64,000 nt of DNA from an uncultured Nitrosospira sp. GTDB taxonomy: Bacteria > Nitrospirota > Nitrospiria > Nitrospirales > Nitrospiraceae. The stretch's first letter is position 1. Every line of letters begins with the position of its first letter. The notes below the pieces were generated by a model. It ran no database searches. It saw only the letters and a list, made by a program, of their open reading frames with translations, and was not told the DNA's origin. This document shows, piece after piece, positions 35,739 to 40,351 of this stretch. The stretch is from NCBI GenBank assembly GCA_900696515.1, contig CAADGK010000112.1:1-64000 (forward strand), written 5' to 3'. A program made the position numbers and the translations under genes.

Positions 35739-36794
35739 ATGACCACCGACGAACTCGAAAAGCTTTTGGCTCAACAACCCGTCGCGGTGCTGCATCGTCT
35801 GGCCCGCGGCCGTGTCCAGCGCCATTTTCGTGCCGGGAAGCGGCGTCTGATTGAGCTGCTGCTCCAACATTCGAGCCAGAATCGCGCCGGCTTCGAATCC
35901 GATCTGCTGACGCTGATTGGAGAACGTCAATCCGGCCCGACCCCTGGATCATCGAGAAGACCGGGGGCTCCACCGGGCGCTCATAAGCACGTTGCACCAA
36001 GGTCTTCGGACACGGAGCCATCGGATCCTCCTGTCTCCCTCACAGAGTGGCTGCAGGGGCTCGGTGTGCCGGCTCCACAACCCTTCGTCCAGGACCCCTG
36101 GCAAGTTGAAGCCCTGGCCGCAGTCAGTGAGACCGATGTGGTAATCAGCGTCCCGACCGGAAGCGGGAAGACCTATGTCGCAATTGAAGCGGCACGACGG
36201 GCCATGGAGGACAATCGCAGTGTCATTTACACTTCGCCGCTCAAGGCCTTGTCGAACACCAAGTATGCGGAGTTTTCGAAGATCTTCGGACCGGACAAGG
36301 TCGGTATTCTCACCGGTGATCGCCAGGAAAACGGACAGGCCCCGTTGCTCGTCATGACCACGGAAATTCTCCGCAATCTGCTCTACGATGCCGCGAGTGG
36401 TGAGATCGATGTCCGATTGGACACGCTCGGCTTGGTCATCCTGGACGAGTCCCAGTATCTGGCTGATCCGGAACGTGGCGTCGTGTGGGAAGAAACGATT
36501 ATCTTCTGCCCCTCCCAGGCGAGGCTCTTGTTACTCTCTGCCTCCATCGGCAATCCTCAGGACATCGCCGATTGGCTGACGTCGATCCGGGCAACCCCCT
36601 GTCGACTGGTGCGACACAGCAAACGCACCGTGCCCCTGAGAGCCGGCTATCTGCATCCCAATGGACGACTCACCCCCTTGTTTCGCACGCTTGGCATTCC
36701 ACAGGGACATCCCGGCCACCTCCATCCCGAGGCCAAACACCTCTTCATCGAATACGAAGAAGAGACTCTACCCTCCGGACGTGCAAGGCGTTAA
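35739..36794 (+). CDS. N-terminal half of a Ski2-like helicase (separate ORF)
   Basis: The 351-residue protein holds the first RecA domain: Q-motif-like PFVQDPWQVEALAAV, Walker A SVPTGSGKTYVAIEAARRAM (about 139-158), motif Ia TSPLKALSNTKY, motif II VILDESQYLADPERGVVWEE (DESQ in place of the usual DEVH, about 233-252) and motif III LLLLSASIGNPQDIADW. It stops after the LPSGRARR element, which in one-piece relatives leads straight into the PPSIHPVD start of the other half. The first 100 residues are a low-similarity extension. The start has only a weak binding site. Confidence 0.8.
   Translation: MTTDELEKLLAQQPVAVLHRLARGRVQRHFRAGKRRLIELLLQHSSQNRAGFESDLLTLIGERQSGPTPGSSRRPGAPPGAHKHVAPRSSDTEPSDPPVSLTEWLQGLGVPAPQPFVQDPWQVEALAAVSETDVVISVPTGSGKTYVAIEAARRAMEDNRSVIYTSPLKALSNTKYAEFSKIFGPDKVGILTGDRQENGQAPLLVMTTEILRNLLYDAASGEIDVRLDTLGLVILDESQYLADPERGVVWEETIIFCPSQARLLLLSASIGNPQDIADWLTSIRATPCRLVRHSKRTVPLRAGYLHPNGRLTPLFRTLGIPQGHPGHLHPEAKHLFIEYEEETLPSGRARR
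36693..36794 (+). repeat. tandem repeat copy 1 (3' end of the helicase N-half)
   Basis: 102 bases repeated in frame at 36831-36932 with a 36-base spacer. It encodes GIPQGHPGHLHPEAKHLFIE and YEEETLPSGRARR, including the stop. Confidence 0.8.
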
Positions 36795-36830
36795 TGGTTC
36801 CCCGAATCCCCATACTCTGCACAACCACTG

Positions 36831-36932
36831 GGCATTCTACAGGGACATCCCGGCCACCTCTATCCCGAAGCCAAACACCTCTTTATCGAATACGAAGAAG
36901 AGACCCTGCCGTCTGGACGACCGAGACGGTAA
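36831..36932 (+). repeat. tandem repeat copy 2 (downstream of the helicase N-half)
   Basis: Second 102-base copy of 36693-36794, encoding GILQGHPGHLYPEAKHLFIE and YEEETLPSGRPRR then TAA. It has no start of its own and is a remnant of a duplication. Confidence 0.8.
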
Positions 36933-38439: not shown

Positions 38440-38515
38440 GCCGAGGTAGCTCAGTTGGCAGAGCACAGCCCTGAAAAGGCTGGTGTCGACAGTTCGATTC
38501 TGTCCCTCGGCACCA
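38440..38515 (+). tRNA. tRNA-Phe(GAA)
   Basis: Acceptor GCCGAGG pairs with CCTCGGC, discriminator A and encoded CCA at 38513-38515. Anticodon arm CAGCC-CTGAAAA-GGCTG gives GAA at 38473-38475. T-arm ACAG-TTCGATT-CTGT. It is the insertion site of the element that follows. Confidence 0.95.
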
Positions 38516-39062
38516 TATTTCGCATAGTTACAGGATTCACGTTTTGAACAACTGGCACCCAAGTGGCAGTAACTGGCACCTGAACGTCGTTTTCCCCGTT
38601 TAGAACCGCCTTCGTAAACGCTTCCAGCCTGGTCACAGCATCCCGCAATCGCGCGTTCCAATTGTAAATGTAGTACTTCGCCGAACCAGGAAGCGGCTCT
38701 CCTTTTAACGTCTGGATCACAGCGTAATCCACGCCACATTGTGTGAGCCAGGTCGTGAAGGTATGACGAAGATCGTGGAAGTGCAGATCGTGCACCCCTG
38801 CCCGCTCGCAGGTTCGCATCCAGGTATGCTTGAAAGAATTCCCGTCTTTCCAGTGATGGAAAAAGCGCCCACCGATTCGTGGAGTTTTTCCGAACAACGC
38901 CTCGTACGCCAGACTATTCAGGGGAACCATTTTAGGCACCCCTTTGATTTTTGTCTGGCCGGGCGAGGGAACCACCCACCAGCCGTCTCCCCGCTGCATC
39001 AGCCACTCTTCATGGATCTCGATCAGCTTGTTTTCCCGAAGCCCGATCTGCAGTGCGGCAGG
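38451..39062 (-). pseudogene. tyrosine recombinase, N-terminally truncated
   Basis: The open frame holds the catalytic domain from about LPAALQIGLRENKLIEI onwards: PKMVPLNSLAYEAL, VHDLHFHDLRHTFTTWLTQ (the conserved HxLRH) and a GVDYAVIQTL helix. The following LGH motif is replaced by KGEP, and the nucleophile is likely one of the Tyr in AKYYIYNW. A TGA at 39063 blocks extension upstream, so the DNA-binding N-terminus is gone. The frame runs into tRNA-Phe, giving the well-known RDRIELSTP artefact at its end. It sits beside the att site as expected. Confidence 0.8.
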
Positions 39063-39424
39063 TCACCGGCCGTCCATGGCCGAACAATTACCATCAACCG
39101 ACGACAACAAACAGATGAACGCACCGGTTTCGGATCGGTAAGACCTCGACGGAGTAACGTAAATCAGCAGAGCAAAGAGAATCAGAACGAGCAGACCCGT
39201 TAATGTCGAACCGAGAATGAGTCGAGTGATCGGACGATTGCATGGATTGCTGACTAAGCGCGAGAAGCGCTGATAGGCTCACAGCACCGTCACGCATCGC
39301 GGGCACCTATGTGCCACGCACCTTTACTCGACTTGATACACCGGTCAGACTGGGACAACGCCTTTTCAAGGCTGCCCTATGACGCTGGCCTGTCGATCCC
39401 GAAGACCGTGACGGTCGTTCGTTC
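39063..39424. other. gene-free stretch inside the element
   Basis: About 360 bases between the truncated integrase and the toxin-antitoxin pair. No supported gene or repeat; probably the remains of lost cargo. Confidence 0.4.
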
Positions 39425-39763
39425 CTATGCGGCTGAACTGCGAGACCGTGGTCTCGGAAGAATGCGGATCAGGCGGCGTTGGCCGCGCTTCTTCTCACGG
39501 GCATAAATTTCAAGTTCACAGTCCATCGCCTGGACATAGTCCTGAAGGGTCGAGAGGCGCCAGTCGCTTCGGTTCTCGAGCCGTGACACCGCAGCTTGTT
39601 GAAGACCAAGCGTCTTCGCCATAGTGACTTGCGATCGTTTGAGGGCACGACGCAACTCCTGAAGCGTCATTTCCTCGGCGAGGATTTGCGCCGCTCGTGC
39701 CTCAATGGCCCGACGGCGTTTCTTTGGGAGCCTGTTCATCACATCTCGATGCGTGATCATCAT
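39425..39763 (-). CDS. XRE-family antitoxin (HigA-like)
   Basis: The 112-residue protein has a helix-turn-helix in RRALKRSQVTMAKTLGLQQA followed by AVSRLENRSD (about residues 40-69), as in Xre antitoxins and the phage-type CI fold. It starts within the toxin stop (ATGA overlap), toxin first, as in higBA modules. It should bind the toxin and repress the operon through the palindrome at 40182. The basic C-terminus is unlike most HigA. Confidence 0.8.
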   Translation of the reverse strand: MMITHRDVMNRLPKKRRRAIEARAAQILAEEMTLQELRRALKRSQVTMAKTLGLQQAAVSRLENRSDWRLSTLQDYVQAMDCELEIYAREKKRGQRRLIRILPRPRSRSSAA

Positions 39764-40143
39764 GAGTCCTCCTTGCGACGTGTTGACCGCTGCTCCATCT
39801 GCATGGTCCGTACATGGACACTAAATTCGCGATCCGCGAGCGGAATGTTTCGGCGGTACCACTGCTTATCGCCAGTTTTGGTGCCTCCTAAAAGCAAGAC
39901 TGCGCGGCGCGCTGGATCGAACGCGAACAAGATGCGCACAGGGTCACCTTTGAACTGAACGCGAAGCTCTTTCATATTTGGATGTGTGGAAGCTTTGATA
40001 TGATCCACCCGTGGCCGTCCGAGGTTCGGACCCAATCTGCTGAGCACCTCTACATGTGCGAGAACTTCTGTTTGTAGGGCCATTGTACATTGCTCAAGCC
40101 ACGCTGAGAATCGCGGGCGATAAATAATGGTCCACTCTTTCAT
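39760..40143 (-). CDS. RelE/HigB-like toxin (Gp49 type)
   Basis: The 127-residue protein matches the phage-derived Gp49/HigB-like group: WTIIYRPRFSAWLEQ, RPRVDHIKASTHPNMKELRV, then VRILFAFDPARRAVLLLGG and TKTGDKQWYRRNIPLADREF. Family members cut mRNA, often on the ribosome. The key motif KELR plus RILFAFDP and the KTGDKQWY block are present. First gene of the pair. In this decayed element it is the only cargo still intact. Confidence 0.85.
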   Translation of the reverse strand: MKEWTIIYRPRFSAWLEQCTMALQTEVLAHVEVLSRLGPNLGRPRVDHIKASTHPNMKELRVQFKGDPVRILFAFDPARRAVLLLGGTKTGDKQWYRRNIPLADREFSVHVRTMQMEQRSTRRKEDS

Positions 40144-40181
40144 CTTCTCAACATCTCTTCGTCAAAAATATTACAAACCGA

Positions 40182-40205
40182 ACATATTCCACAAGCGGAA
40201 TATGT
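40182..40205 (-). promoter_or_regulatory. palindromic operator upstream of the toxin-antitoxin pair
   Basis: ACATATTCC and GGAATATGT, 9-base perfect arms with a 6-base spacer, 39 bases upstream of the toxin start. This is where an Xre antitoxin would bind for autoregulation. Inferred. Confidence 0.6.
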
Positions 40206-40327
40206 ATCCCCTCACGAAGAGAACTTGATTTACGTCACCCTTCCCTCTGTTCCCATTTTCACCGGCTGCACGAGGCCCACGCCAGGCAGGAGCCGGTGCA
40301 TCACGGCAAGGATCAGTTGCTGCTTTT

Positions 40328-40351
40328 TGTCCCTCGGCACCACATTCCGCA
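40328..40351 (+). repeat. att site: copy of the tRNA-Phe 3' end
   Basis: TGTCCCTCGGCACCA is identical to the last 15 bases of tRNA-Phe, and the next 9 bases match with two differences. It marks the far edge of the element. Confidence 0.8.

Follow-up and report, generated by a model that had tools for sequence, protein, structure and literature searches.

The window (the whole 64,000-nucleotide stretch of DNA that was analysed; genomes, contigs and loci are cited by handle, with G000 for the genome of the window itself) contains a tRNA-Phe gene and, 1.8 kb away, a second copy of its 3' end. Between the two copies lie the remaining part of a tyrosine integrase gene, a complete toxin–antitoxin (TA) pair, and pieces of the transfer region of an integrative conjugative element (ICE), joined at junctions J1–J3:

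38440–38515, + strand: tRNA-Phe (GAA), integration site on the attL side (ARAGORN)
38498–38524, + strand: attL repeat copy, tRNA 3' end plus 9 nt (repeat comparison, pattern search)
38516–39059, − strand: 3' portion of the gene for a tyrosine integrase, encoding the C-terminal catalytic part with an open frame of 182 aa (PF00589)
39055–39059: junction J1, integrase to radC spacer, shared word GCGGC
39055–39294: spacer that adjoins radC in the ICE, matching radC–virB2 intervals of many relatives at 66–75%
39425–39763, − strand: antitoxin, 112 aa, Xre/HigA-like (PF01381, HTH_3)
39760–40143, − strand: toxin, 127 aa, RelE/HigB-type (Gp49), upstream gene of the pair (PF05973, E 1.6e-19)
40144–40210, − strand: toxin promoter region with the inverted repeat ACATATTCCGCTTGTGGAATATGT, probable operator
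40244–40251: junction J2, virB2 deleted (~535 bp), shared word TCCC near 40250
40251–40281, + strand: virB3 codons 6–16, 90–94% to the virB3 5' end in 12 loci
40272–40325: piece of the right end of an island, matching G012:C1:571351–571404 at 85% over 54 bp
near 40275: junction J3, virB3 to island right end, shared word GAGGCCC
40325–40351, + strand: truncated attR, corresponding to the final 27 nt of the longer repeat in relatives; host DNA and a cytochrome c gene follow

By similarity search, the tRNA-Phe gene is the sole complete one of the genome, and among 79 genomes of the same genus (Nitrospira) tRNA-Phe is a recurrent integration site. The two repeat copies agree at 24 of 27 nt with a spacing of 1827 bp, and the final 15 nt of the tRNA, TGTCCCTCGGCACCA, are identical in both. 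The sequence-only reading had reported these 15 bases as duplicated 1.83 kb away, which is correct to within a few bases, and the repeat is not a product of chance, since with up to three mismatches the pattern occurs at two places in the window, both of them the known copies, against 0.00 expected from shuffles. The empty tRNA-Phe site that an insertion implies is present in six relatives (G043, G044, G019, G003, G005, and G092), where the cytochrome c gene located beyond 40351 in the window comes immediately after the tRNA. The empty site of G043 reads CACATTCCGC, and the right-hand copy in the window is identical there. With a duplicated tRNA 3' end, an empty site in relatives and an integrase adjacent to the tRNA, the locus has the anatomy of a tRNA-integrated island or ICE.

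In full islands, the far repeat consists in most relatives of the tRNA 3' half from the anticodon loop on (44–58 nt), and in several it is preceded by a conserved island end of ~150 bp; the far repeat of the G012 element is also short, ~24 nt. Because the copy in most relatives is at least 44 nt long and begins at the anticodon loop, the 27-nt right-hand copy in the window has probably itself been cut on its left side, so that it starts only at 40325. The tRNA anticodon arm and positions 39360–39381 form an inverted repeat, which was considered as a further relic of an att site and rejected; it also occurs in the G092 block, away from tRNA-Phe, and is attributed to chance. Elsewhere in the same genome, at the end of contig C9 (G000:C9, L131, 4315–4353, − strand), a tRNA-Phe 5' half of 39 nt (97%) runs into unrelated DNA with GGCACT repeats like those beside the integrase, near an RND efflux gene of the CzcA/CusA type. 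ARAGORN identified no complete tRNA in this half, which is possibly a tRNA split at another insertion.

The integrase next to the tRNA had been read as truncated, and the comparison with relatives confirms this: the PF00589 match is retained in 182 aa of what is a frame of ~390 aa in relatives, with the 5' half of the gene, and hence the N-terminal half of the protein, missing and an in-frame stop just upstream. The remaining piece is 92–96% identical in DNA to the intact tRNA-Phe integrases of about ten relatives (found at tRNA-Phe in G018, G063, G077, G052, G044, G006, G013, G011, G060, G016, and others), and in every full-length match the similarity ends at 39059. Compared with the five closest copies, it carries five window-specific changes in 543 bp, of which three are synonymous and two nonsynonymous; one of the changes replaces His by Tyr in the motif YYIHN, adjoining the probable catalytic tyrosine. 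Because these are the only changes specific to the window, the decay of the element appears to be recent.

As for the TA genes, the sequence-only reading of an intact HigBA-like pair near the far end agrees with the PF05973 and PF01381 matches and with the two open frames, which overlap by 4 bp, with the toxin first and the Xre-type antitoxin second. Neither protein scores above the curated cut-off of an NCBIfam TA model, and the pair is therefore referred to as HigBA-like and not as a HigBA equivalog. The best PDB sequence matches of the antitoxin are HigA2 and HigA3 antitoxins (E 1.3e-4). A sequence search of the PDB with the toxin gave no match, and matches were obtained by fold comparison alone: the predicted structure (mean pLDDT 87.5) assumes a RelE fold, and the best Foldseek matches are the HigBA2 complex (PDB code 5jaa, E 8e-4) and RelE (PDB code 2khe). 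Contig searches with the toxin returned matches only in Nitrospira/Nitrospirales relatives. In seven of seven homologues, the toxin start is preceded at ~60 bp by an inverted repeat, and the palindrome ACATATTCCGCTTGTGGAATATGT, its version in the window, is a probable operator for autoregulation.

The toxin is 97% identical in protein sequence to its counterpart in G082 and 94% identical to that in G092, at synonymous distances of 0.42 and 0.60, respectively. Against these two genomes, dN/dS is 0.04–0.05 for the toxin and 0.05–0.10 for the antitoxin, and the window-specific changes in the pair (28 synonymous, 5 nonsynonymous) differ from a neutral expectation of 72% nonsynonymous at p 1.6e-11. 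These values indicate strong purifying selection on both proteins. The signal is largely older than the decay of the element, and sequence alone cannot show present maintenance of the pair.

The origin of the DNA that surrounds the pair can be traced in detail. Positions 39055–40244 match G092:C44:397–1586 in a single alignment at 87% identity, in which the spacer at 39055–39294 is continuous with the TA pair. In G092 and G082 the gene order is intact, with radC (PF04002), the spacer, the TA pair on the opposite strand, virB2 (PF04956), virB3 (PF05101), and virB4 (TIGR00929), and the block in the window is collinear with this order in both genomes. The window lacks virB2 and nearly all of virB3. 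In the 54 bp at 40272–40325 no gene was identified, and the sole convincing match is in another tRNA-Phe element, that of G012, close to its right end. The possibility that the TA pair was the original cargo of small tRNA-Phe islands was considered and ruled out, since its flanks match the radC–virB2 interval of the ICE. Another copy of the ICE transfer region, with virB2, virB3 and onward, is found in the same genome at G000:C66:15651–16181, on a contig that ends just upstream of virB2, in the cargo slot described next.

The interval between radC and virB2 is a cargo slot of the ICE, and it holds different TA pairs elsewhere. In 23 of the 24 virB2 loci examined, radC lies upstream, and the remaining locus is that of G000:C66, which ends at the contig edge. 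The interval measures ~600–920 bp in most loci, and extra DNA is found in G092/G082, G052, G094, G060, G077 (8.9 kb), G004, G093, and G053. The slot is occupied in G092/G082 by the TA pair of the window, in G052 by a HigB (PF05015) with a HigA-like protein, in G094 by a Gp49 protein and its partner together with a HigA-like gene, and in G060 by a Gp49 toxin. The interval of G006 has no TA pair, and ~72 bp take the place of ~1165 bp of G092.

Based on these correspondences, we consider it likely that the locus is a Nitrospira ICE at tRNA-Phe that has eroded to 1.8 kb, in which the TA pair is intact, probably works, and may have survived since deletions removing it would be selected against. The designation as a minimal integrative element, proposed in the sequence-only reading, is replaced by that of a relic, a patchwork left from a much larger ICE: no mobility gene of the element is intact, and the surroundings of the TA pair come from a type IV secretion operon. 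Nor is this a functional ICE, as the integrase lacks its N-terminal half and virB3 codons 6–16 are all that remains of the virB genes. The ancestral element, estimated at several tens of kb, would have carried radC, a VirB-type transfer region and cargo, with a TA operon of the HigBA2/RelE type in the slot between radC and virB2, and would have entered at the 3' end of tRNA-Phe by means of its tyrosine integrase. After integration, at least three illegitimate deletions would have followed: one ending at J1 that took the integrase 5' half together with all DNA as far as the radC spacer, one at J2 that took virB2, and one at J3 that took everything from virB3 to the right end, with most of attR also lost. 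Because the joints sit in short shared words of 4–7 bp, we infer that they are deletions by illegitimate recombination, whichever order they may have taken. The TA pair is the only module that came through these deletions whole.

The remnant would no longer be able to excise or transfer by itself, and the TA operon with its operator would probably still be working. The toxin is expected to act on mRNA as a ribosome-dependent interferase and to be neutralised by the Xre antitoxin, with autoregulation of the operon by the antitoxin. Loss of the pair by deletion would then release the longer-lived toxin and be selected against. That the pair keeps the remnant in place by such addiction is plausible but unproven. 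A rival account, which concerns the retention of the pair and not the anatomy of the locus, is that the deletions happened to end around the TA genes, which are now neutral cargo; this may well be so, although we lean against it. The few changes in the integrase piece fit such an account, and over that divergence both TA frames would escape nonsense and frameshift changes under neutral drift with a probability of ~0.5–0.8, so that the survival of open frames is uninformative because the decay is too recent. Furthermore, a 3.8-kb relic at the same tRNA in G082, with an equally truncated integrase, was found to contain no TA genes of the searched families and no RelE-type toxin. On the other hand, at least three deletions have spared exactly the TA operon and its operator and cut all other genes, and by a rough, post hoc estimate a random 1.19-kb internal fragment of an element of 40–75 kb would span the TA pair in ~0.5–1% of cases.

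Chance survival is also at odds with a second relic, in G017 (L053, G017:C1, 583–1994), which likewise keeps a HigBA pair. As in the window, an integrase of the same family (88% in DNA) is truncated at its 5' end beside the same tRNA, and the HigBA pair directly adjoins it. Unlike the pair in the window, that of G017 is of another HigBA type (PF05015 with HTH_3), and it belongs to a 6.8-kb element with other genes; the two relics are independent.

The presence of ICE backbone inside tRNA-Phe islands makes it possible to derive all parts of the locus from a single ICE. On a single contig of G077, virB2 is found at 40.2 kb and tRNA-Phe with the integrase at 74.1–74.7 kb, with the relative orientation seen in the window. 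In G006, the tRNA-Phe attR (contig C40, 112.1 kb) comes after an ICE backbone at 69.0–109.6 kb that is collinear with those of G092 and G082. The middle block could nevertheless have reached the tRNA-Phe island by recombination and not in the same integration, because the ICE with the closest TA pair is not at tRNA-Phe in G092 and G082. In its full form, this alternative is a composite, in which a short tRNA-Phe island received a piece of a different ICE (radC–TA–virB3) by recombination or nested insertion and was then reduced by deletion. The ICE is indeed away from tRNA-Phe in G081, G082 (~250 kb from it), and G092 (where the tRNA-Phe site is empty), virB2 of this ICE is absent from genomes such as G018 that do have tRNA-Phe islands, and the resident ICE of the present genome, that of G000:C66, is another copy. 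Set against the backbone found in the tRNA-Phe islands of G077 and G006, in the same orientation, we regard a composite origin as unlikely, though deserving of some weight.

A self-sufficient minimal integrative element, in which the repeats and the TA pair form a unit mobilised in trans, is largely refuted and in our judgement very improbable. The flanking repeats are real, and intact integrases of the same family in relatives could act in trans, but attR lacks the anticodon-side half as well as the ~150-bp right end conserved in most other islands, the same 1.8-kb unit is found in no second genome, and cut fragments of virB genes are recognisable in the interior. It is equally improbable that unrelated contigs were joined in assembly at shared short words: the genome is a draft of 144 contigs and the joints do sit in such words, but 4–7 bp is far below usual assembler overlaps, the right side runs into the host gene order of empty sites, and none of the pieces has an identical copy elsewhere in the genome.

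A wider role of the slot can be considered. In this Nitrospira ICE family it could be a dedicated socket for exchangeable TA operons, as the different TA types of G092/G082, G052, G094, and G060 suggest, with the socketed TA pair acting as a deletion guard while the ICE decays around it, leaving in the end no more than the TA pair and the attachment ends, as at this locus. The G017 relic, which keeps its own HigBA pair, bears comparison with this idea, which we regard as doubtful at present.

The tRNA-Phe islands are rich in TA genes beyond this locus. Within ~309 kb of islands that lie on single contigs, eight RelE-superfamily toxins were found against 0.55 expected from the genome-wide density, a strong enrichment that favours retention of the remnant by its TA pair, with the caveat that islands are generally rich in TA genes. 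These counts are from Pfam-based genome searches; a seed-based survey was dropped as biased, since part of its seeds had been taken from the islands themselves. RelE-type toxins lie ~0.2–4 kb from the attR end in five further tRNA-Phe islands (G081:C1:3549844–3554000, G016:C16:8002–9964, G006:C40:110093, G060:C2:250787, and G052:C64:4263), and because of these five cases TA genes seem to be concentrated towards the distal island end. A 5.0-kb tRNA-Phe element in G063 (G063:C204, L128, 3837–8965) combines an intact integrase and an excisionase-like gene with a Gp49/HTH_37 pair, a HigA-like gene, and a DUF433/DUF5615 (PIN-like) pair, and is nearly a pure TA carrier. The G012 element (G012:C1:561500–573000, L132; 9.4 kb) encodes an integrase of its own along with a radC-like gene and phage packaging/capsid-like genes, and by eye looks like a phage satellite.

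Several known systems share features with the locus. The SXT ICE of Vibrio cholerae carries the TA pair mosAT, which was shown to reduce loss of the element and had no similarity to previously characterised genes (PMC2654960). A TA pair carried in an ICE is common to both cases, but SXT is intact and mobile, whereas here the ICE has been cut to 1.8 kb and the TA pair is of the RelE/HigB superfamily. TA loci of the V. cholerae superintegron have been proposed to act against large deletions, and in the stabilisation model chromosomal TA pairs resist the deletion of otherwise dispensable DNA (PMC2654758). Similar to the pair in the window, HigBA2 combines a RelE-fold toxin with an Xre-type antitoxin, and 5jaa is the closest solved fold of the toxin; the differences are that HigBA2 is located in an integron cassette array and not in an ICE slot, and that sequence identity to 5jaa is 18%. 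With islands and ICEs at tRNA 3' ends, the locus shares the distal duplication of the tRNA end, the integrase beside the tRNA, VirB-type genes, and accretion and decay at one tRNA. Unlike in those elements, the integrase, the transfer genes and most of attR have been deleted here.

A review of 2009 urged that islands and remnants be surveyed for stabilisation by TA pairs (PMC2654758). The present locus is a new and well-resolved case of a decayed ICE at a tRNA with a TA pair as sole survivor, to which the TA slot of Nitrospira ICEs is added; in the available portions of the literature, these ICEs and their TA systems seem to be little described. The locus represents a natural end-point of known ancestry, in which all parts except the 54-bp scrap can be traced to a place in an intact element, the lone intact module is the TA pair, and sister genomes supply both empty sites and full islands. 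On a small scale, the idea that TA pairs resist deletion can be tested here, and the G017 relic and the ICE slot with its varying TA pairs make a comparative test possible.

Outside the element, a helicase-like ORF of the window (35739–36794) appears truncated, and its 3' end coincides with a 105-nt direct repeat (36690–36932, 87%, spacing 138 bp).
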